From NCBI RefSeq assembly GCF_030864005.1, contig NZ_CP132976.1, forward strand, positions 2,976,001 through 3,040,000: a DNA stretch of 64,000 nt, written 5' to 3'. This stretch comes from Achromobacter seleniivolatilans (GTDB taxonomy: Bacteria; Pseudomonadota; Gammaproteobacteria; Burkholderiales; Burkholderiaceae_B). Both the position numbers and the translations under genes were made by a program. A model generated the notes under the pieces. That model searched no databases and was not told the DNA's origin. It saw only the letters and a list, made by a program, of their open reading frames with translations. Below are positions 6,038 through 22,346 of this stretch, piece after piece (positions within the stretch are counted from its first letter, which is position 1; the number at the start of each line of letters is the position of its first letter).

Positions 6038-7546
6038 TCAGACCAGGTTGTGAGAGCCGTCCACCTTCCGGACCATGTCACCCTTGGAATAGACCAGCGT
6101 GTACTTGGCCGCGTACTCGGTCACACCAGACTCGCCAGTTGATTGCTCGATGCGCACGTCGTACCAGTAACCGTTGTCTTGCACGTCGTGCCAGGCCAGC
6201 GGGTCGTTGGTCAATTGCGTCACCGCGACCTTCTGCAGCTCGGTCAGGGTCTTGCCGATCAGGATGGTGCCGTTGTTCAGCGCTTTGTTGACCCCACCCT
6301 GGATGATTGCCATCACCATGCCGCGGCCGTCGTTGTTGGCCGGAATCTTGTTCGTCGTCAACAACAGGCTCATCAACTGCGCCGTCATGTACGCCTTGAG
6401 CCATTGCTCGTTGGCGTGTACTGACATGTCCAGCGGCGCCGTAACCCCGCCCATCAGGTAGCCCCGCTGGAAGAACGAGATCTTCTGGCCAGCGCTGGCC
6501 GTCAGGCCGTAGTAGTTGACCCGGCGCGCGTCGTAGAAGTCCGCCATCTGATCGTCGGTCACGTCGGACGTCAGGGTCACCCCGGACTGGCGGTACATGT
6601 AGTTGATCGTCGCGTTCGTACGGTCGTAGTCGGTAGCCGCCATGACTGCCATCGGCAGCGCTTCTTTGTACTCACCAGCCGCACTATTCAAGATCAGGCC
6701 GTTCGAAGCCGTGCCGATCATGGCGGCATTCCAGGTATCGGCGGTCACCGAATCAACCGACCAATACATCTGATACTTCACGTTCTCGCCCGACACGTAC
6801 TCCGCCAGGGGGAGCGCGTCTTCCAAGTCAATCGCCACACCGAAGGATGCTGACCCGAAGGAATCGGTGACGTTCTCGGCCGCGCGGAAAGCCTGAAGCG
6901 GCGTCATCGCGACGGAACCGGGCGAGCTGATCGCCTGAGCGCCCTGGAGCGCCAACATTGCACCAATGTCGTTTGCAGTCGTTGGGGATACGACAATAGC
7001 GCCGGGCCCGGACACTGCCGATTCCACCGTGAACGATCCAGCGATGGCATCGTACGTGACGGTAGCCGCGGTGCCAGATTGGGCGGTCGCAGCAGTGGCA
7101 ATCGCAGTCGTGACAAGCTGAGCCACGTTGGTCAAGCTCGTGGCGGCTGTCAGATCCACAGCGGTAAGCGCGTAGGCGAATTGGCCAACCTTGATGTTCA
7201 TCTCGCCAGCGGTGACGGCCTTGAAATCCGCGAGACTGGCCGAGATACGAAATCCGTAAACGCGGCCGGGGCGGGCGACGTCCGGATAGGCCGCAAACTG
7301 CAGCTCCGGGGCTTGGGATGCGGGTGCCGGGCTGATGTAGGAGAAGAGCTGGCGCGCGAACGCCGCCTCGGGCGAGTCCGAGCCGAAGTAGTCGTCGGCG
7401 CCGCCGGGGCGCACCGACACGATCTGGCCGACGGGCACGCGCGGATCAGTGGTGAAGCGTCGGCCAGTCAGCTGCTGCTGGGCGACAGCATTGGCGCCGA
7501 TCACCGCGCTGATGATTCGGACGTAGCGAGACATCTTGATGGACAT
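6038..7546 (-). CDS. Tail sheath protein, DUF3383 family
   Basis: This 502-residue protein begins MSIKMSRYVRIISAVIGANA and contains RRVNYYGLTASAGQKISFFQRGYL-like text and the C-terminal MSLLLTTNKIPANNDGRGMV segment, features of the DUF3383 family. That family takes the sheath role in Bcep781-like and Aaphi23-like contractile phages. The gene is the longest in the tail block and lies upstream of the tube gene, as usual. The start chosen is the ATG at 7546; the ATG four codons later is possible. It marks the phage as contractile-tailed. Confidence 0.85.
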   Translation of the reverse strand: MSIKMSRYVRIISAVIGANAVAQQQLTGRRFTTDPRVPVGQIVSVRPGGADDYFGSDSPEAAFARQLFSYISPAPASQAPELQFAAYPDVARPGRVYGFRISASLADFKAVTAGEMNIKVGQFAYALTAVDLTAATSLTNVAQLVTTAIATAATAQSGTAATVTYDAIAGSFTVESAVSGPGAIVVSPTTANDIGAMLALQGAQAISSPGSVAMTPLQAFRAAENVTDSFGSASFGVAIDLEDALPLAEYVSGENVKYQMYWSVDSVTADTWNAAMIGTASNGLILNSAAGEYKEALPMAVMAATDYDRTNATINYMYRQSGVTLTSDVTDDQMADFYDARRVNYYGLTASAGQKISFFQRGYLMGGVTAPLDMSVHANEQWLKAYMTAQLMSLLLTTNKIPANNDGRGMVMAIIQGGVNKALNNGTILIGKTLTELQKVAVTQLTNDPLAWHDVQDNGYWYDVRIEQSTGESGVTEYAAKYTLVYSKGDMVRKVDGSHNLV

Positions 7547-14849: not shown

Positions 14850-16084
14850 CCGAAGAATCCGCGCTTGCGCTTGATCATGGGCTGCAACGCATACCGCGTC
14901 GCGTCCATGTAATGGTTGTTGGCGTCCACGATGTCTGTAAGCACATCGCCCGTCAGGCGGTCCACCTTGTAGCTGTACAGCCTAGCCTCACGCAGGGTCT
15001 GCACGCAGCGCGGGTGGATGACCAGTTCCTTGTAGGAGCGCAGGTGGGCAATGCCATCCTCAACGCTGCCCTTCCACTTCTCAACGCCTTGGAGGCGCGG
15101 GAGGTTGGCACGCTGGCCGTCCCTGCCCTTGCTCTTCACGTGGCTGATCGTCTCCGGCCTGGCCGAGTCCGCACGGGTCACGTGCTGCTCAATGCCTGGC
15201 AGGCGGGCGACCATGAACGCCGCGATGTCGTCGTTCTCGAGCCCGATCTTTCCGGCCTCGTGCTCGACCCACAGCCGGTGGTCATGCACCCAGAGCTTGA
15301 CGCCGGCGGTCGGGTCCTGGCTAAAGCCCCAGTCCAGACCGAAGTACGGGCCATCCCAACCAGCCGCCGGGTCGAACTCTGCAACCCTGTACTTGCCGGC
15401 CAGGATCTGCGCTTCGCTATTCTCGCGGTAGGCGCCGTCCCAAATCCAGGCATAGGTCTGGTCGTCCAGGCGCTCGCGGTCATTGCGGCGCTCCTGCTCC
15501 AGCACATCGGGGAACCAAGGGTTGTCCGTGTAGTTCAGCTCGACGATCTTGGAATTCGGCGGCGGATTTTTGACGAATCGCAGATCGGTCGGGCTGCCGT
15601 CCAGCTCCGGGTTCCAGGTCAGCCAGACTTCGGAATCGTTCTCCCGCACCGTCGGCAGCAGCTTCTGGTACGCGATCTCGCTGACGTTCTCCGCCTCGTC
15701 TATCCATGCAATCAGCACCCGCGCCTTGGACTTAATGCTGTCCAGGTTGTGCCGCAAGCCCGCGAAGGTGTACGAGACACGGCGGTTGCGCGTGCGGATG
15801 AACTTCTCGCCGATCTCGAAGTAGGCATCGAGCCAAGGCACTGAACGGATAGCCTGCTTGACCTCCTCCATAGAGGAGTCTTCCAGGCTGTTCATGTACT
15901 CCCGGCCGCACAGGACCACACCCGACACGTCGGCCTGGGCGAACATGTATGCCCGCACCGCCGTCATCAGCGCGAAGCTGCGAGTCTTTGCGCTACCGCG
16001 GCCGCCTCTTGCCCCCCTGTACCGCGCCGGCCCGGAGAACACCGGGATCAGCTTTGGGGGGAGTTCGATGTTAGCCGTCGTCAC
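14846..16084 (-). CDS. Terminase large subunit (PBSX-type), GTG start
   Basis: The protein has a Walker A-like GARGGRGSAKTR at about residues 24 to 35, a Walker B VLIAWIDEAE at about 123 to 132, and a nuclease domain with acidic residues in FGLDWGFSQDPTA (D251, D257). It is the ATPase-nuclease that packages DNA. I chose the GTG at 16084 inside the end of the small subunit gene (GTGACGACGGCTAA). The 48 residues upstream in the same frame are Arg/Ser/Pro-rich shadow sequence of the small subunit. Length is 412 residues. Confidence 0.85.
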   Translation of the reverse strand: MTTANIELPPKLIPVFSGPARYRGARGGRGSAKTRSFALMTAVRAYMFAQADVSGVVLCGREYMNSLEDSSMEEVKQAIRSVPWLDAYFEIGEKFIRTRNRRVSYTFAGLRHNLDSIKSKARVLIAWIDEAENVSEIAYQKLLPTVRENDSEVWLTWNPELDGSPTDLRFVKNPPPNSKIVELNYTDNPWFPDVLEQERRNDRERLDDQTYAWIWDGAYRENSEAQILAGKYRVAEFDPAAGWDGPYFGLDWGFSQDPTAGVKLWVHDHRLWVEHEAGKIGLENDDIAAFMVARLPGIEQHVTRADSARPETISHVKSKGRDGQRANLPRLQGVEKWKGSVEDGIAHLRSYKELVIHPRCVQTLREARLYSYKVDRLTGDVLTDIVDANNHYMDATRYALQPMIKRKRGFFG

Positions 16085-16523
16085 CTGGGGCAACCAATTG
16101 GATCGTCGTGGGCATGGTGGGGATCGGCCCACCGTTGGGGCCGCTGAGTTCGCGCTTGTTTGTGAACATGCCGCCGCTTTCCTTGGCGGCCTGTTCGAGT
16201 ACTGACGCCGCAGCCACGACGTTGCCACGCTGCATGTGCCGTTCGTAGATCTTGCTCAGAGCCCGAAGCCGGAACGACTGTTCAGCTATTGGGATCTTGG
16301 CCGCTTCCGCCCTGAATGCGTCACGTGTACTCTCGAACAGGTCCCGCCACTTCTTGGCCAAGCGGCTACCAGACACCTTCGTCGGATCGTATTGCGCGAC
16401 GTGCGTGCGTGGCACCTCGATGCCGAACTGCTCTCGCAGCAGCTCCGAAACCTCTGTCGGCGTGTCCCAGCAGGCCAGGGCTTGCACGATGACTTGCTTG
16501 TGCGCATCGTTCAACTTCGCCAT
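16071..16523 (-). CDS. Terminase small subunit, DUF2280 family
   Basis: The ATG at 16523 gives a 150-residue protein with the DUF2280 pattern: MAKLNDAHKQVIVQALACWD, TPTEVSELLREQFGIEVPRT and RLRALSKIYERHMQRGN. The N-terminal helix-turn-helix-like part would bind the packaging site, and the rest oligomerises. It overlaps the start of the large subunit by 14 bases. A GTG two codons upstream is possible, but the ATG is preferred. Confidence 0.8.
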   Translation of the reverse strand: MAKLNDAHKQVIVQALACWDTPTEVSELLREQFGIEVPRTHVAQYDPTKVSGSRLAKKWRDLFESTRDAFRAEAAKIPIAEQSFRLRALSKIYERHMQRGNVVAAASVLEQAAKESGGMFTNKRELSGPNGGPIPTMPTTIQLVAPGDDG

Positions 16524-16542
16524 ACCCACATCCCAAAGTCTG

Positions 16543-17193
16543 TTATGCCGCCTTCAGGCAGCAACCGCAGGCCCGCGCAATGCTTAATCTCGGTACCACA
16601 GGCGTGTTGCCAGCAGCCGCCACTAGGCGTCGGACATCCTCCGAAGGACCGTATCGCGCCACTACGCCGATGAATTCTTCCACGTCGTGCCCCACAATTC
16701 GCAGCTTCGGCCGGCCTAGCTTGTCGAACGCTGGGGCGCCATACGGATCCAGCGCTTGACCGATGTGGTACAGCTCATGCTCCACCAGCGCGCAGAATTC
16801 CGCATCGCTGCAGGACGCGCAGTAGTCGGCCGCCAGCGTGATCAGAAATGCGGGGACTCGCCCGAACCATTCCACCATCTGCTGTTCCTGGCGCGCCTTC
16901 TGCCAGCCGCCGGCTCGGAACATGACCTGCTCGGCTTGGCCAAGGATTTGACGGCCCCCCTTAGAGAATCCGGACGATGCCCAAAGGAACGCCAGATCCG
17001 CGTCAGCTAAGTGCGCGTGGTCCGGGTTGTGGATTGGCCCGCCTTCGTCCGCCACGATCGCGCCGAGCGCCCAGCTGAGAAGCTCGGGCGCCGGACATAG
17101 CTGCGGGGCGTCGGACTGGCACACACGCTCCAGCCATTCGGCCGGCGGCCGCGGCCGTCCTTCGCCCTCGGCACGTCCCCGCAACCTGGCCAT
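16543..17193 (-). CDS. Phage metallopeptidase-like protein (HExxH)
   Basis: The ATG at 17193 lies two bases after the formyltransferase-like stop (GTGTGAACATG) and gives 216 residues. The zinc-peptidase motif HELYH is at residues 139 to 143, and a second His/Asp/Glu group GHDVEEF is at about 169 to 174. This matches the putative phage metallopeptidase family often found near terminase genes. The protein is Cys-rich around DYCASCSDAEFC. The substrate is unknown; capsid processing, a host target or a non-peptidase zinc role are all possible. Confidence 0.7.
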   Translation of the reverse strand: MARLRGRAEGEGRPRPPAEWLERVCQSDAPQLCPAPELLSWALGAIVADEGGPIHNPDHAHLADADLAFLWASSGFSKGGRQILGQAEQVMFRAGGWQKARQEQQMVEWFGRVPAFLITLAADYCASCSDAEFCALVEHELYHIGQALDPYGAPAFDKLGRPKLRIVGHDVEEFIGVVARYGPSEDVRRLVAAAGNTPVVPRLSIARACGCCLKAA

Positions 17194-17195
17194 GT

Positions 17196-17816
17196 TCACA
17201 CCTTCAAGTTTGCCAATTTGGCAGCACTGAATGCCGGCTCCCATGTGGCCAGACCCTCGTCCTGCGCCTGCCCTGCCATCTGCCCACCGCCCTCGAGTTG
17301 GCCCAGCACCAGCGAGAACAAGCGCAGCCCCATTGGACCCAGGTCACGGCGCCATACGTCTGCGGCCGTGTCGTTCGGGCGGATATGGCACCACGCCTGC
17401 GCCAGTATTGGCCCAGTGTCGGCGCCGTCATCCATCCGATAAAGCGTTCCGCCCGTCACGGACTCCTTCATGTGCACTGCCCACCGGACGGCGTCACGAC
17501 CACGATGCCGCGGCAACAGGGATGGGTGATACCCGAGCGCCCCGTGCCGTGCCCGCGCCCGCGCGCCCGCCTCAATGAAGCAATGAGCATGCGCCGCCAG
17601 CAGCACGTCACAACCCTCCGGAACATCCGCCGCGCCCAGGCGGCCGCGCGTCGCGCACGCCGGCACACCGAGTTGCTGCGCAGCCGCATAGAGCCGGTCG
17701 TAATCAATGCCTTCGGCCGGCGGCGCGGCCACGGCTACCACTTGGTGGCCTTCGGCCAGGCACTGGCGCAGTAACGCCGCGCCCAGCCACTTCTGGCCGA
17801 TGATCATGATGCGCAT
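17196..17816 (-). CDS. Formyltransferase-like protein with altered active site
   Basis: The ATG at 17816 overlaps the upstream ATPase-GNAT gene by 13 bases and gives 206 residues. It has the Rossmann start MRIMIIGQKWLGAALLRQC and the formyltransferase core GYHPSLLPRHRGRDAVRWAV, then TGGTLYRMDDGADTGPILAQ with the conserved Asp. The conserved Asn of the Asn-x-His-x-Ser-Leu-Leu-Pro motif is Gly here, so it may not use the usual N10-formyl-tetrahydrofolate chemistry. Its place in a com-led cassette suggests work on nucleotide or DNA modification, which is inference. The extended reading from 18122 overlaps the previous gene and is rejected. Confidence 0.75.
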   Translation of the reverse strand: MRIMIIGQKWLGAALLRQCLAEGHQVVAVAAPPAEGIDYDRLYAAAQQLGVPACATRGRLGAADVPEGCDVLLAAHAHCFIEAGARARARHGALGYHPSLLPRHRGRDAVRWAVHMKESVTGGTLYRMDDGADTGPILAQAWCHIRPNDTAADVWRRDLGPMGLRLFSLVLGQLEGGGQMAGQAQDEGLATWEPAFSAAKLANLKV

Positions 17817-18904
17817 GTCGGCTCCCCCATGTACCGGAAGCCCTGCACGGCGCGGAAGTGCCCGCCGTAACTGGTCAGCACTCCCCCGGCGGTAGGCTTT
17901 CGCAGTTTCCCGCTTGGCGCGCCGTAGAGTGGCGCCGAGACCTGCGTCCACCGCTTGTCGCGGCGCAGCGCGGCGGCCAGGCCGGGGTGGCTGGTATGGA
18001 ACAGGGTCCGAAGTGACAGGCCATATCGGTTGTTGCCGGCCAGCCAAGCAGCGCACACGGCGTTCAGGAATCGCATGCCCACGCCGGCGCCTTGCCATTC
18101 CGGCATAACGACCAGACGGCATGCACGCGCCTCGATCAGGCCCGGCCTGGTGCTGACCGCCATGTGGGCCACCGGCTCTCCGTTGATCCAGCCCACATAG
18201 TTCGTGGCGGCGATCATCTTAGGCATCTTCAGATAGTGATGCGGTTCAAAATGCGGCCACCAGCGCCAATCGGTTTGCTCGATGTCCAGGTCCAAGCGCG
18301 GCCGGCGTCGAACCGACCCCCGATCAAACTGGCCCGTGGCGCTGTCGAACACCCAATCCGGTTGCAGCCAGTCCAGCACATCGTAATGGCAGGACAGCAG
18401 CACAACCTGGCCACCGGTGCGTCGCCACGCCTTGGCGAACGCACCGGCGCCGACCCTGGCAATCTGTCTGTCTACGACGGAACTGAATTCGTCCACGACG
18501 GCGACCGGCGGAGCCTCGACAACCAGGCGCGCCAGGTTCGCGCGGAACTGCTCGCCGTTGGACAGCACGCCATACGGCCGCAGCCAGGACGGAACACTGC
18601 CCAGGCCCACCGCCGACAATGCGGCAGTCACGTCGTCGAATGCGCCGGCTGGCGCGATCGCGTCGATGATGGGGCGGTCCGATGGCCAGGCCGGGGCGTA
18701 GAGTGGCGCGATCGCACGTCCGATGCTGGTCTTGCCGGAGCCGGACGGGCCAACGATCACCCCTACCCGCCATTGGCCGTCGTCGATGGGCAGATCGGCC
18801 TCCAGGTCGAACGCGGCGCCGCTATCGACGTTGAACAGCGATTTCACCCTAGCCGCGCGGTAACTTTCGGCGTCGGCGCAGCGGTGCTGAATGGACACTT
18901 TCAT
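17804..18904 (-). CDS. ABC-type ATPase fused to GNAT acetyltransferase, Mom-cassette candidate
   Basis: This 366-residue protein joins two domains. Residues about 25 to 190 form an ABC-type ATPase: Walker A GPSGSGKTS at 52 to 60, signature LSNGEQ at 114 to 119, Walker B VAVVDEF at 134 to 140 and a switch His at 173. Residues about 230 to 350 look like a GNAT domain with the acetyl-CoA loop VVMPEWQGAGVGMRF at about 265 to 279. No membrane segment is present, so it is not a transporter. Mu Mom is also a GNAT-fold enzyme that acts on DNA adenine, and a Com-like gene lies just upstream. A DNA-modifying role is therefore likely but inferred. Confidence 0.75.
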   Translation of the reverse strand: MKVSIQHRCADAESYRAARVKSLFNVDSGAAFDLEADLPIDDGQWRVGVIVGPSGSGKTSIGRAIAPLYAPAWPSDRPIIDAIAPAGAFDDVTAALSAVGLGSVPSWLRPYGVLSNGEQFRANLARLVVEAPPVAVVDEFSSVVDRQIARVGAGAFAKAWRRTGGQVVLLSCHYDVLDWLQPDWVFDSATGQFDRGSVRRRPRLDLDIEQTDWRWWPHFEPHHYLKMPKMIAATNYVGWINGEPVAHMAVSTRPGLIEARACRLVVMPEWQGAGVGMRFLNAVCAAWLAGNNRYGLSLRTLFHTSHPGLAAALRRDKRWTQVSAPLYGAPSGKLRKPTAGGVLTSYGGHFRAVQGFRYMGEPTCAS

Positions 18905-19077
18905 ACGGCTACCACCTTCAGGCGGTAGCCCTTCGCGCGCAGGTCGTCGAAGACGCGCTGCTGGTGACCTTCGTCATCGCACAGCACGATCACGCCGTAG
19001 CGCGGCTTGTACTTGAAACCGTTGACGCCGGGCTGCTTACGCGCCGGCGCGGCGGTGTTATGGCCGTTGGCCTCCAT
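18901..19077 (-). CDS. Conserved small protein of the com cassette
   Basis: This 58-residue protein starts at the ATG at 19077, inside the last 20 bases of the com-like gene, and ends in an ATGA overlap with the ATPase-GNAT gene. It has a charged N-terminus (MEANGHNTAAPARKQPGVNG) and then a compact segment KPRYGVIVLCDDEGHQQRVF with LRAKGYRLKVVAV. I recognise this as a conserved small partner next to Com-like genes but know no function. The tight coupling to both neighbours supports expression, and it may be regulated by Com through this overlap. Confidence 0.65.
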   Translation of the reverse strand: MEANGHNTAAPARKQPGVNGFKYKPRYGVIVLCDDEGHQQRVFDDLRAKGYRLKVVAV

Positions 19078-19261
19078 GCCTGCTTACCTCTGGGCTGGAT
19101 GCTCGGCGGCATGCTTGATTGTGGCTCTGGGCGCTCGGGGCGCTCTCGGCCATCGAAAACGCGTTCACGGTCTTGCACCGCGAACATTTGATGTTGAGCC
19201 GGACATATCCGGTCGTTTCCGCGAGCTTGCGCCCGCAGTTGGTACAACGTAGTTCTTCCAT
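19058..19261 (-). CDS. com: Com-like zinc protein (Mu Com family), leads a modification cassette
   Basis: The first 30 residues begin MEELRCTNCGRKLAETTGYV and carry two Cys-x2-Cys pairs at C6/C9 and C26/C29. This is the same layout as phage Mu Com, a small zinc protein that binds mom mRNA and allows its translation. The protein is 67 residues against about 62 in Mu, and the tail is Ser/Arg-rich. The gene is first of a block followed by a small protein, the ATPase-GNAT fusion and a formyltransferase-like gene, all overlapping. Translational control of the downstream genes is the likely role, by analogy. Confidence 0.8.
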   Translation of the reverse strand: MEELRCTNCGRKLAETTGYVRLNIKCSRCKTVNAFSMAESAPSAQSHNQACRRASSPEVSRHGGQRP

Positions 19262-19436
19262 GAGTGACGTTACCGATGTGTTACCGTAGCCCCCGCCTGT
19301 ACAGGTGGGACGGCCTTGGGTCGCTCACGGCTTATTCCGTGGGTCGGCTGTCGGTCGCGCAGTTACCGCTGCGCGGCCGTCGCCGTCTTCTTTGCTTGCC
19401 AGATGTCAACAGATTGCATTGATCAAGGAGAGGCGC
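19262..19436. other. Intergenic region between late block and DUF6173 gene
   Basis: This 175-base gap separates the leftward com cassette from the rightward DUF6173 gene and should hold the divergent starts for both. It contains repeated GTTACCG words at 19269, 19281 and 19362 and a hairpin GCGCAG-TTACCG-CTGCGC around 19357 to 19374. No strong sigma-70 promoter is clear. The hairpin and repeats may be a late-gene control site, which is speculation. Confidence 0.4.
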
Positions 19437-19796
19437 TTGAACAAGGATTTGGGTTTACGAGACGCTATCGCTAATTTGACTCAGGGCTACTCGCCATCTG
19501 AGAATGCGCCGAAATCTATACCTGAGTACGCCTTCGCGGCGATACGTCGGCAAGTTGAGCAGTACGAGAAAGAGCTGGAAAACGTACCCGGTTCATACTC
19601 TATTTGCCTCACTTCGGGCGGCTATGACATGGTCGTGGAATCGATCCGCTTGGACGGGCAGTTCATCATCTTCAGCGGGCGCGACGAAAGCGACGGACCT
19701 CGTCGAGTAATCCAGCACTACACACAGGTATCCATGGTTCTATCTAAGGCCCCGCCCACAAGCGCGAAGAAGCCGATCGGATTTCATGCGGAATGA
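19437..19796 (+). CDS. DUF6173-like protein, TTG start, moron-like gene
   Basis: I chose the TTG at 19437 because AAGGAGAGG sits six bases before it, while the ATG at 19305 has no such site and adds an Arg/Pro-rich shadow. The protein is 119 residues. It has an amphipathic helix (EYAFAAIRRQVEQYEKELEN) and a beta-rich end with LTSGGYDMVVESIRLDGQ and GRDESDGPRRVIQHYTQ, the DUF6173 pattern. It reads rightward among leftward genes, is visibly less GC-rich than they are, and has its own terminator. This looks like a moron, an independently expressed accessory gene. Function unknown. Confidence 0.7.
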   Translation: MNKDLGLRDAIANLTQGYSPSENAPKSIPEYAFAAIRRQVEQYEKELENVPGSYSICLTSGGYDMVVESIRLDGQFIIFSGRDESDGPRRVIQHYTQVSMVLSKAPPTSAKKPIGFHAE

Positions 19797-19805
19797 TACA
19801 AAGCA

Positions 19806-19834
19806 AAACGCCCCGGTTTTTGGCCGGGGCGTTT
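19806..19834. terminator. Bidirectional rho-independent terminator
   Basis: An 11-base inverted repeat AAACGCCCCGG / CCGGGGCGTTT with a seven-base loop ends in T runs on both strands. It lies between the converging DUF6173 gene (plus strand) and the helix-turn-helix gene (minus strand) and would stop transcription from both. Confidence 0.85.
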
Positions 19835-19836
19835 CT

Positions 19837-20466
19837 TTAGCGCGTACTTGCTACGAGTCTGGGCGAATTCTGCTCATCTTGTCCCACATTGTCAAGCGCC
19901 GTTGGCGTCGCACCTGCCTCCAGGTCCACCACGATGTCGGCGTCCCGCATTCGCACATCCAGGCGGTTCAAAGCGGCGCGACGGGCGCCTTCCACCAGCA
20001 CGCGATAGGCTGACGACAGCCGGCCGATATTCGACTTCGGCACGTCGAATTTGTCCGATAGCTCTCTGATCCTCGGCCTGCCCCGCAGAATGTTGGTCAC
20101 CAACAGGTCTACCAGCTCGCGTTCGCGGCTGTCATCGGCCGCATCCGGGTTCAACCATTCCGAGACTTGGCGCGCGCTGACCGCACCCTCCTCGCCTGTG
20201 CCGTACTGTGCCTGCAAGATGTGAAAGCCCATACCATCGCCCAGCGTCCGTTCCAGCACCTTGACCGTGAATACCGCCTGCGCATGCCAGTCGTGCGGTG
20301 ACAGGCCCGACAACACCTTGCGGTCATAGGTCGCGTCAAAGCGGTCGCGCAGCGCCTCACACACCAACTGTGTAGGATTCTTCGGCTCGATCGGGTAGGC
20401 CAGCATCAGGTAGGCCACGGCGATCGCGTGCTCGGGGCATGAGAACGTTCCGGCTTCACGGCGCAT
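19837..20466 (-). CDS. Helix-turn-helix phage protein, possible late-gene regulator
   Basis: This 209-residue protein ends the leftward early operon. Residues about 120 to 160 form a helix-turn-helix-like segment (RGRPRIRELSDKFDVPKSNI, then GRLSSAYRVLVEGAR). The N-terminal part resembles helical phage proteins of unknown function (CPEHAIAVAYLMLAYPIEP). Its place, last before the late block, is where Q-type antiterminators or late activators lie in lambdoid phages. I therefore propose a late regulator role, but no diagnostic motif proves it. Confidence 0.55.
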   Translation of the reverse strand: MRREAGTFSCPEHAIAVAYLMLAYPIEPKNPTQLVCEALRDRFDATYDRKVLSGLSPHDWHAQAVFTVKVLERTLGDGMGFHILQAQYGTGEEGAVSARQVSEWLNPDAADDSRERELVDLLVTNILRGRPRIRELSDKFDVPKSNIGRLSSAYRVLVEGARRAALNRLDVRMRDADIVVDLEAGATPTALDNVGQDEQNSPRLVASTR

Positions 20467-20944
20467 TTTTCTTCACTCCCTGGGCGGGTTCCATGTCCAG
20501 CACGGTCAGCACCACGTCTACGCGCGGCACCAGGCCGTAGACCTTGCTCTTGCTAGCCTGGACCACCTGGGCGTCATCGCGGTATGCGACGCCGTTGCAG
20601 CCGTCCTTGATGGCCTTCTCGACGTTGTCGCCGTCAGGCTTCACGGTTGGCGCGATCTCGCCGGCGGCGGCGCGGCGCTGCCGCACGCCGGACCAGGATT
20701 GCGGGATCGGCATGACAATGTCCAGGTCCATCCGTATAGGCCCGGTATAGGCTTCGCGCCCTGCCATGGCCTGGGCCGCGACCAGTTTGACCAGACTTTC
20801 ATAGGCCACTGTCGCCTCTGGGGTGTAGTGGCGCGTAAAAACGCGGGCGGCCCCTGTCTTGGCGTCACGGCCTATACGTGAGCTGGATTTCGCGCGGCCT
20901 TTCCCTTGCGGCACACCGGGTACGGTGAAAACGATTTGCATCAT
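20456..20944 (-). CDS. RusA-type Holliday junction resolvase
   Basis: This 162-residue protein begins MMQIVFTVPGVPQGKGRAK and carries the RusA core: KPDGDNVEKAIKDGCNG and then YRDDAQVVQASKSK, with the Asp residues that bind magnesium. RusA cleaves four-way DNA junctions during phage recombination. A GAGGGAG site precedes the tandem ATGATG start, and the upstream stop overlaps it. The first 46 residues of a longer frame are shadow sequence. Confidence 0.85.
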   Translation of the reverse strand: MMQIVFTVPGVPQGKGRAKSSSRIGRDAKTGAARVFTRHYTPEATVAYESLVKLVAAQAMAGREAYTGPIRMDLDIVMPIPQSWSGVRQRRAAAGEIAPTVKPDGDNVEKAIKDGCNGVAYRDDAQVVQASKSKVYGLVPRVDVVLTVLDMEPAQGVKKNAP

Positions 20945-21165
20945 GCTCCCTCGCTGCGCGCGTCGCGCAGCCATTCGATACGCGCGGCCGTCTTGGCCGC
21001 AGGCGCTGGTTGGTGGTCCCGGCATTGACGCGGGTATTGCGGGCTGACGAAGGTGCCAGGGCGGTCTTTCATGGCGGCGCACCTGGCCAGCCCAAGCTGG
21101 GCATATTTCGGATCTTCACGCAGGGTGAACAGAGCGCAGCTCACGCACTCGACAGCAGTCGTCAT
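20941..21165 (-). CDS. Small Cys-rich phage protein
   Basis: The ATG at 21165 overlaps the YdaU-like stop as ATGA and yields 74 residues. It begins MTTAVECVSCALFTLREDPK and has four Cys: C7 and C10 as a Cys-x2-Cys pair, and two more in LARCAAM and PRQCRDH. A small zinc-binding fold is likely. The gene lies between the replication and RusA genes, overlapping both. No function is known to me. Confidence 0.65.
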   Translation of the reverse strand: MTTAVECVSCALFTLREDPKYAQLGLARCAAMKDRPGTFVSPQYPRQCRDHQPAPAAKTAARIEWLRDARSEGA

Positions 21166-22346
21166 ATGTGGACCCCAAGGTCTGCGCGGGCGCGGGCTTT
21201 GTCGCCTTCGCTCAGGTGGGCGGCGGTAATCACCCTGGCCTTGAACGACGGGAACGGTTCGCCCTGGTCCTGCACGATGCCCAGCTCGGCGCCCTTCGAT
21301 TCCAGCCCTGACGCCGTGGTCAGCCATGCCAGCGGATCGGACTTCGACACAGCAGGCTTCTTGCCGTTTAGGGCACTCTCACCCTGCGGCGGGTTCAGCA
21401 CTTTGGCGACGAAGATGTCCAGGAAGCCCGGTGCGATTGGGCCGGCATCGCCTGTGGTTTCGCGATCCAACACCGCCAGGTCGTAGGCTTCGGCCAATTG
21501 CAGGTCGGTGACGCCGGCATTGATCCACGCTGCGATTCGTGGGTCATTGCTCAGCGTACTGCGGGGTTGCTTGCCTCGCGCCTGCTCCTTGCGGCGCAGC
21601 CAGACAGCAACCGCCATGGCCAGTTCTTCGGCCGTCTTCTCGCCGTCCAGCGGCGGCGGCGCAGGGTCGTCGCCATGCGCAAACACATGCGCGAGAGACG
21701 CCGCCGCTGTTTCTTCTTTTTTATATATCCCTGTCCCTGTCCCTGTCTTAGCCGTGACACCCCCGTGACTTTCCGTGTGACTTCCTGCTGTTGTCACAGT
21801 GACACCCTTGTGCCCCGCTGTGACGGTTAGGGCGATCCCACGTGACGCCGCTACCTCACGCAGGTGTGACGTCGTCGTACCCTTCGCGGGCAGAATCAGC
21901 CCGATTTCGCGCAGCGCCGCAAACAACAGTTTTCGGTCCTCCCGCTCTTCGCGCTTGCGGTCGTTGTCGCCTTCCTTGGCGGCCTGGTGCTCCTCTCGTT
22001 TCGCCATTGCTTTGATCGCCTCGGCGGCGATGACCGCATGGTAGAGGCGCCCGTCTGCGCATTTCACGAAGCCACGCAGGGCCATGTCCTTCACCTTGCG
22101 CCAGGCGGGCAACTCCTTGCCGGCCAGGTGGGCCAGAATCCGGTCATCGTCGGGCAACGACGCGGCCGGCTCCTGGTTCCAGCTCTTGCACCACAGCCGC
22201 AGGGCCGTCTTGAACTCCTCCCCGGTCGAGAGGGCCATCATGTCGCTGTCGAGCAGGCGTTCGGTGTGTAGCGGCATGAAAGGCAGCCCGCGCAGGTTGC
22301 AATCCGGAGGGGTCAGGGGGGCCGGTAGCTGTTCGAAATCCGTCAT
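21162..22346 (-). CDS. YdaU-like replication protein (DUF1376)
   Basis: The ATG at 22346 yields 394 residues. The N-terminal 100 residues (FMPLHTERLLDSDMMALSTG, KTALRLWCKSWNQEPAASLP, DDDRILAHLAG) match the DUF1376/YdaU domain of Rac-like prophages, thought to act as a replication initiator. The middle is charged and helical, and the C-terminus is variable (LNPPQGESALNGKKPAV). It follows YdaT-like and HNH genes, close to the order ydaT-ydaU of Rac. No DnaC/helicase-loader gene is visible next to it, so it may recruit the host helicase itself. Confidence 0.75.
   Translation of the reverse strand: MTDFEQLPAPLTPPDCNLRGLPFMPLHTERLLDSDMMALSTGEEFKTALRLWCKSWNQEPAASLPDDDRILAHLAGKELPAWRKVKDMALRGFVKCADGRLYHAVIAAEAIKAMAKREEHQAAKEGDNDRKREEREDRKLLFAALREIGLILPAKGTTTSHLREVAASRGIALTVTAGHKGVTVTTAGSHTESHGGVTAKTGTGTGIYKKEETAAASLAHVFAHGDDPAPPPLDGEKTAEELAMAVAVWLRRKEQARGKQPRSTLSNDPRIAAWINAGVTDLQLAEAYDLAVLDRETTGDAGPIAPGFLDIFVAKVLNPPQGESALNGKKPAVSKSDPLAWLTTASGLESKGAELGIVQDQGEPFPSFKARVITAAHLSEGDKARARADLGVHI

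Follow-up and report, generated by a model that had tools for sequence, protein, structure and literature searches.

A Com-led cassette with an ABC-ATPase/GNAT fusion and a formyltransferase-fold gene in an Achromobacter prophage: a probable phage DNA-modification system

Organization of the cassette

The window, a stretch of 64,000 nucleotides of Achromobacter seleniivolatilans (contig NZ_CP132976.1, positions 2,976,001 to 3,040,000), contains four minus-strand genes which overlap one another between positions 17196 and 19261 (Table 1). These are com, a gene for a 58 amino acid protein, a gene for an ABC-ATPase/GNAT fusion, and a gene, here termed FT, for a protein with the formyltransferase fold. 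An earlier note, made from the letters of this DNA alone, had described four overlapping leftward genes including a Com-like product, a GNAT domain joined to an ATPase and a formyltransferase-like protein; the layout was confirmed, and all three assignments were borne out by Pfam matches. The CxxC pairs of Com proved invariant in 23 aligned sequences.

Table 1. Genes and RNA elements of the cassette (positions in the window)
Feature	Position	Strand	Evidence
com, zinc-ribbon RNA-binding translational regulator, 67 aa	19058..19261	-	PF10122 (30.2 bits, above cut-off), phrog_6417, phrog_13819
Com-type RNA hairpin copy 1, within com	19125..19149	-	model R1, 26.1 bits; motif; covariation across loci
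Com-type RNA hairpin copy 2, within com, just 5' of the 58-aa start region	19093..19118	-	model R1, 24.2 bits
58-aa protein, homologue of the C-terminal tail of the ParB-like partners of ABC-GNAT	18901..19077	-	phrog_28816; BLAST/HMM
ABC-ATPase (residues ~1-200) and GNAT (residues ~207-321) fusion	17804..18904	-	PF00005, PF00583, phrog_11143; structure model
FT, formyltransferase-fold protein, His97/Ser99/Asp133, with Gly95 at the place of the amine-formyltransferase Asn	17196..17816	-	PF00551, phrog_9240

The cassette sits within a prophage, beside terminase-type genes and away from any Mu-like end. Downstream of it lie genes for a phage metallopeptidase and a DUF2280 protein, and a terminase-like ORF, the last assigned by our own reading. 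The public label of the ORF at 16543-17202 is doubtful, being phage metallopeptidase in Pfam (PF18894) and transposase in PHROGs (phrog_513). An Rfam scan of window positions 15000-22000 gave a single sub-threshold match (E 0.52), lying outside the cassette.

Relatives of the cassette

The same gene set, which it had been proposed to seek next to Com in other prophages, was found in 43 of 80 viral loci by BLAST, the 80 being the best of 403 fusion matches in viral contigs and many of them being cut by contig ends; ten of the 43 have the metallopeptidase as well. The remaining loci carry the 58-aa gene, fusion and FT (14), com, 58-aa gene and fusion (13), 58-aa gene and fusion (9), or fusion and metallopeptidase (1). 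A separate FT query of the viral contigs confirmed four loci, all on contigs known from the fusion search. In the host genus the fusion was present in one of 37 genomes, that of the window itself; such hits as occurred in other genomes were weak and incomplete (E 6e-5 to 1e-3; candidates scored in part).

In 61 of the 80 viral loci the contig ends within 6 kb downstream, as bounded in IMG/VR. The end lies within 3 nt of the last cassette gene in 30 of the 61 and within 1 kb in 48, a placement that we liken to that of mom, which in Mu is close to the right end and stops 115 bases short of the end of the record. The other 19 loci, including the nearest relatives of the window, are uncut downstream of the cassette. 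Among 42 of the 80 cassette-bearing virus records that were searched, some of them fragments, 19 had the Mu-transposase C domain and nine DDE_2 (above cut-off in four); Mom was found in none.

Two viral loci differ in content. L098 bears two distinct ABC-GNAT fusions close together on one contig (5001-6080 and 7035-8258), and in L050 (4633-6174) com, the 58-aa gene and the fusion are followed, in the place of FT, by a 513-aa ORF that has no Pfam match and is ParB-like by eye.

An RNA hairpin at the 3' end of com

The 3' end of com contains two copies of a hairpin, GA-NN-GCC-N2-3-GA-GC-N'N'-C, which covaries across related loci and whose recurring core was first visible in an alignment of cassette leaders. 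The core, NN-GCC-N2/3-GA-GC-NN, occurs 116 times in 75 unique cassette leaders, a set which includes the 25 loci where the motif was first noticed. In 82 of the 116 cores each of the two flanking pairs is of the Watson-Crick type, against a mean of 20.1 and a maximum of 36 in 1000 shuffles of the partners. The hairpin is present in 54 leaders, with at least two copies in 28, while 21 are without a perfect one; the rate is 5.21 per kb in leaders compared with 0.033 per kb elsewhere in the same loci. Among 71 distinct hairpins the two variable pairs each take four pair types, with 69 cells changed on both sides and a covariation score of 0.604 (0.143 when shuffled); these hairpins were chosen for pairing, which alone yields 100% paired, and of the five measures of covariation two, the number of pairs changed on both sides and that of additional pair types, were no better than shuffles.

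In a later set of 80 named-genome loci, which are relatives of the first locus set, the hairpin was found in 31 of 52 loci with Com and in one of 28 without it (p=2.7e-7), leaving 21 Com-bearing loci without a perfect copy. A viral Com set, taken as the best-scoring 80 of at least 514 matches rather than drawn at random, had the hairpin at 59 of 80 loci; with slightly different bounds it was present in 65 of 79 distinct regions, at 5.43 per kb versus 0.051 elsewhere.

The hairpin was compared with the RNA target of Mu Com, for which a SELEX consensus GAGNNCC(N)2-3GAGNNCC, a C-G closed loop motif CC(N)2-3GAG and a native 19-mer, GAAUGCCUGCGAGCAUCCC, are reported (PMC6483171). The core of window copy 2 is the core of this native target. 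Model R1, built without Mu, was used in one search of 57 sources with E up to 1. Of 12 mom loci, which are near-copies of one another and mostly 85-100% identical to Mu mom, it matched 10 at the com/mom junction (E 0.025-0.09). It also matched both copies in the window and 7 of 17 cassette loci kept out of training; among 27 loci that are Com-less or of the ParB type there was one match. Judged by its sequence and pairing, the cassette hairpin is the same element as the Mu Com SELEX motif and native target (PMC6483171), and the cassette is very probably under Com control, in line with the comparison with Mu drawn in the earlier note.

Since the window hairpins are located within com, they might be a by-product of a conserved Com coding sequence. 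We regard this as highly improbable, given that the pairs occur in ten combinations in which both partners have changed in a compensating way, all in a tail of Com where there is little protein conservation, and the agreement with an independently selected motif (PMC6483171).

Matches of R1 at window positions 6933-6958 (E 0.11) and in locus L127 (E 0.032) were taken as chance. A stem that would block translation at the downstream start codon, of the kind known from Mu, was sought in the window at the 58-aa start region, whose folding was no better than that of shuffled sequences (z 0.97 and 1.24; Mu itself 0.21). Two other minus-strand start regions fold somewhat better than shuffles, those of ABC-GNAT (18871-18960, z -1.16) and, the most, of FT (17770-17860, z -2.38).

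Genes led by Com

At E 1e-4 Com was detected in three of 369 genomes of the class, namely the window and two others, in both of which com carries the hairpin and leads a D12 adenine methylase gene. Behind Com in the best 80 of at least 514 viral loci were found 29 D12 methylases, five cassettes, one Mom and 45 other genes. Pfam matches for 44 of these 45 included C5 methylases (26), N6/N4 methylases (6), DUF6242 (8), colicin M (1) and a GDSL lipase (1). Provided that the 26 C5 and six N6/N4 matches do not overlap, a DNA methylase, Mom or the cassette follows up to 67 of these 80 Com genes, a result in favour of DNA modification controlled by Com; the cassette itself contributes five of the 67, so that methylases and Mom account for 62 of the 80. 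DNA modification, which had been put forward as a candidate role of the cassette, is thus favoured by the company that Com keeps, and also by the lack of Mom in the 42 cassette-bearing virus records.

Com with its hairpin (L268, L269, L271-L350) has the look of a switch used widely by phages for DNA modification, serving D12, C5 and N6/N4 methylases, Mom and ABC-GNAT. The hairpin offers a short RNA signature by which phage genes for DNA modification of differing chemistry, all governed by the one regulator, can be recognized. The other 13 viral Com genes have no recognized DNA-modifying gene next to them (eight DUF6242, the single colicin M and GDSL-lipase genes, others, and one unscanned), and the reach of Com control may extend beyond DNA modification to the DUF6242, colicin M and GDSL lipase genes. 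The products with these three matches belong to one alignment, A7 (members e.g. L325, L333, L345, L337).

The ABC-ATPase/GNAT fusion and its family

A fold search with the structure model of the fusion listed ABC ATPases alone, so that the structural check proposed in the earlier note supports the ABC part; the GNAT part is assigned by Pfam. Mom was considered as an identity for the fusion and rejected: no match to PF25680 was obtained up to E 1, whereas Mu Mom scores 253 bits, and the fusion would therefore be an analogue of mom and not mom itself. The cassette resembles the com-mom operon of Mu in the zinc ribbon of Com, the overlapping downstream gene, the same kind of RNA hairpin inside com, a GNAT-fold effector, and the position of many viral copies at contig ends. 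It differs in that the effector is an ABC-ATPase/GNAT fusion without PF25680, accompanied by the 58-aa tail protein and the formyltransferase-fold gene.

The cassette had also been called the best candidate for an undescribed system, and this needs qualification, since the literature already contains a family of ABC-ATPase and GNAT proteins for which modification of DNA bases was predicted (Iyer et al. 2013, cited in PMC7824862). DNA-base acyl transfer by ABC-GNAT is thus a published prediction, and the window fusion belongs to the same family at large. One named member, QAX98348.1, is annotated under our match H25 (37% identity), a distant relative of the window fusion, and another, pT24, is our match H35 (PMC7824862). 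In the passages of PMC7824862 consulted neither Com nor FT is named with QAX98348.1, though Iyer 2013 and Krishnan 2020 may do so. A literature search covering titles and the starts of abstracts, with these two papers outside its reach, found no formyltransferase together with ABC-GNAT or Com among the matches listed, and nothing for COG2401. What is added here is the FT clade, the origin of the 58-aa protein as a detached ParB-like tail, and the likeness of FT to a formyl domain whose acceptor is a thiol, that of 10-formyl-THF dehydrogenase. An acyltransferase family of predicted activity is thereby tied to a well-studied RNA switch, and a candidate acyl donor is named.

The 58-aa protein

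Apart from free-standing copies, the matches of the 58-aa protein are the C-termini of proteins encoded directly upstream of ABC-GNAT, several of which are annotated as ParB-like. Such C-termini were matched by BLAST in L002, L077 and L084 and by HMM (E 1.2e-7 to 0.48) in L004, L088, L087, L090 and L091, with more among L097-L127. In 15 of the 28 Com-less named-genome loci the tail forms part of a longer ORF (160 aa or more); ParB_N (Pfam, E <0.01) was found in seven of ten such ORFs scanned, over the cut-off in four. By these matches the 58-aa protein corresponds to the tail of a ParB-like partner that has become detached: the same tail occurs on ParB-like proteins and as a separate protein, in the latter case mostly encoded behind Com. 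The ParB-like pairs thus share the fusion and the tail peptide with the cassette; they differ in having no Com. FT accompanies the pairs in Gordonia phages, in L126 and in 13 of the 15 named-genome loci, while the Jace-type group is without it.

The fusion might instead acylate a host protein or tRNA for takeover of the cell. Phage GNATs that act on host proteins exist (phiKMV Rac; PMC7824862), and a DNA product is so far only predicted. The shared tail of the ParB-like partners, the location of the cassette near terminase genes in several phages or at contig ends, and the association of Com genes with DNA methylases all argue against such a target, which we consider quite unlikely. DNA is in good probability the target of the cassette.

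FT and its link to the fusion

The nearest solved relatives of FT are the hydrolase domains of 10-formyl-THF dehydrogenase (FDH; single-sequence 3e-25), and with a profile FDH scored 2.2e-38, the best Met-tRNA formyltransferase reaching 7.6e-27. Across an alignment of 41 FT proteins His97, Ser99 and Asp133 are invariant, and the nearly invariant Gly95 stands at the place of the Asn of amine formyltransferases. FT therefore lacks the catalytic Asn-x-His of the 10-formyl-THF amine formyltransferases but keeps Asp133 and His97, and has a site of the FDH type, i.e. a His/Ser/Asp triad without Asn (His106/Ser108/Asp142 in FDH; PMC4388273). The Asn is crucial in FMT, ArnA and GART, and changing Ile104 of FDH to Asn leaves less than 10% of the hydrolase activity (PMC4388273). 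FDH hands its formyl group to the thiol of 4'-phosphopantetheine, and formyl-CoA has been proposed, without direct proof, for the N-domain of HypX (PMC8748788, PMC6802093); HypX was not among the FT matches listed in solved-structure searches. With its FDH-like site lacking Asn and by analogy with FDH and HypX chemistry, FT would have a thiol as its acceptor. The N-terminal domain of ALDH1L1/FDH is its nearest solved relative and has the same kind of site; FT differs from the FDH and HypX domains in being free-standing, of about 200 aa and located beside an acyltransferase, and its formyl-transfer activity is putative.

The absence of the Asn also bears on a two-step scheme, in which GNAT would add an amine-bearing group (e.g. 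glycyl, as proposed for Mom) and FT would then formylate that amine on the DNA. The gene order and the recurrent absence of FT suit an optional later step, and glycyl-CoA has been suggested for Mom (PMC7824862). The residue crucial to the amine formyltransferases (PMC4388273) is, however, replaced by the nearly invariant Gly95, and the site is better suited to thiol chemistry of the FDH type; we hold the two-step scheme to be unlikely.

FT lies within 600 nt of the fusion in 67 of the 80 named-genome loci; in the other 13 it was undetected throughout the fetched stretch. A quick tree was made of 120 distinct fusions gathered by similarity to two queries, with long branches and unsure placement. 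All 59 FT-positive rows fall within one clade of 81 (SH-aLRT 100, branch 3.47), outside of which lies the QAX98348.1 member (L089). Room for FT but no FT was seen in 36 rows outside this clade and five inside, 20 of the 120 rows being without room to tell, and the presence and absence of FT on the tree corresponds to about 10 changes. Between 38 rows of the clade (two of them FT-less) and 15 others the identity is 0.41 in ABC, 0.30 in GNAT and 0.10 in the C-terminus, versus 0.69, 0.73 and 0.60 within the clade and 0.47, 0.46 and 0.27 among the others. Since the 13 loci and the five rows of the clade keep the fusion with no FT detected, either FT is dispensable or the FT-less copies are decaying.

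These data allow a scheme in which GNAT draws on an ordinary acyl-CoA to modify DNA, FT having another purpose such as folate turnover or 10-formyl-THF hydrolysis. The 36 rows outside the clade would indeed need a donor made without FT, and FT is missing from some loci inside it. Against this stand the confinement of FT to one clade whose GNAT part has diverged, and the purifying selection under which FT is found; an ordinary donor is on these grounds improbable. As to a formyl donor, the chances that FT supplies the product with a formyl group appear about even, and formyl-CoA is a tentative candidate for the donor used by GNAT.

Proposed working

The cassette is probably a Com-controlled phage DNA-modification system, similar to com-mom in design and with different enzymes. 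Com would be made first and would bind the hairpins at the 3' end of its own gene, a control element recognized by comparison, thereby opening the overlapping genes behind com to translation, as happens in Mu. The ABC-GNAT protein, probably a dimer that is driven by ATP and steered by the 58-aa tail protein, would then engage phage DNA, and its GNAT domain would move an acyl group onto a base, as predicted in print for the family. FT most likely would load formyl onto a thiol such as that of CoA, so that the added group might be formyl or formyl-derived. In its most specific and rather doubtful form, FT would convert 10-formyl-THF to formyl-CoA or another formyl thioester with which the ATP-driven ABC-GNAT N-formylates a DNA base, giving a folate-fed mark under the Com-hairpin switch.

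By comparison with Mu, DNA so marked would resist restriction; an unusual, perhaps formyl-derived group would probably hide phage DNA from bacterial restriction enzymes. Formylated 7-deazaguanine can occur in phage DNA. The group that ABC-GNAT would add to DNA is open to direct study, since the fusion and FT adjoin in isolated phages, Gordonia phage NHagos and Pseudomonas phage Komp_PAO1_1.
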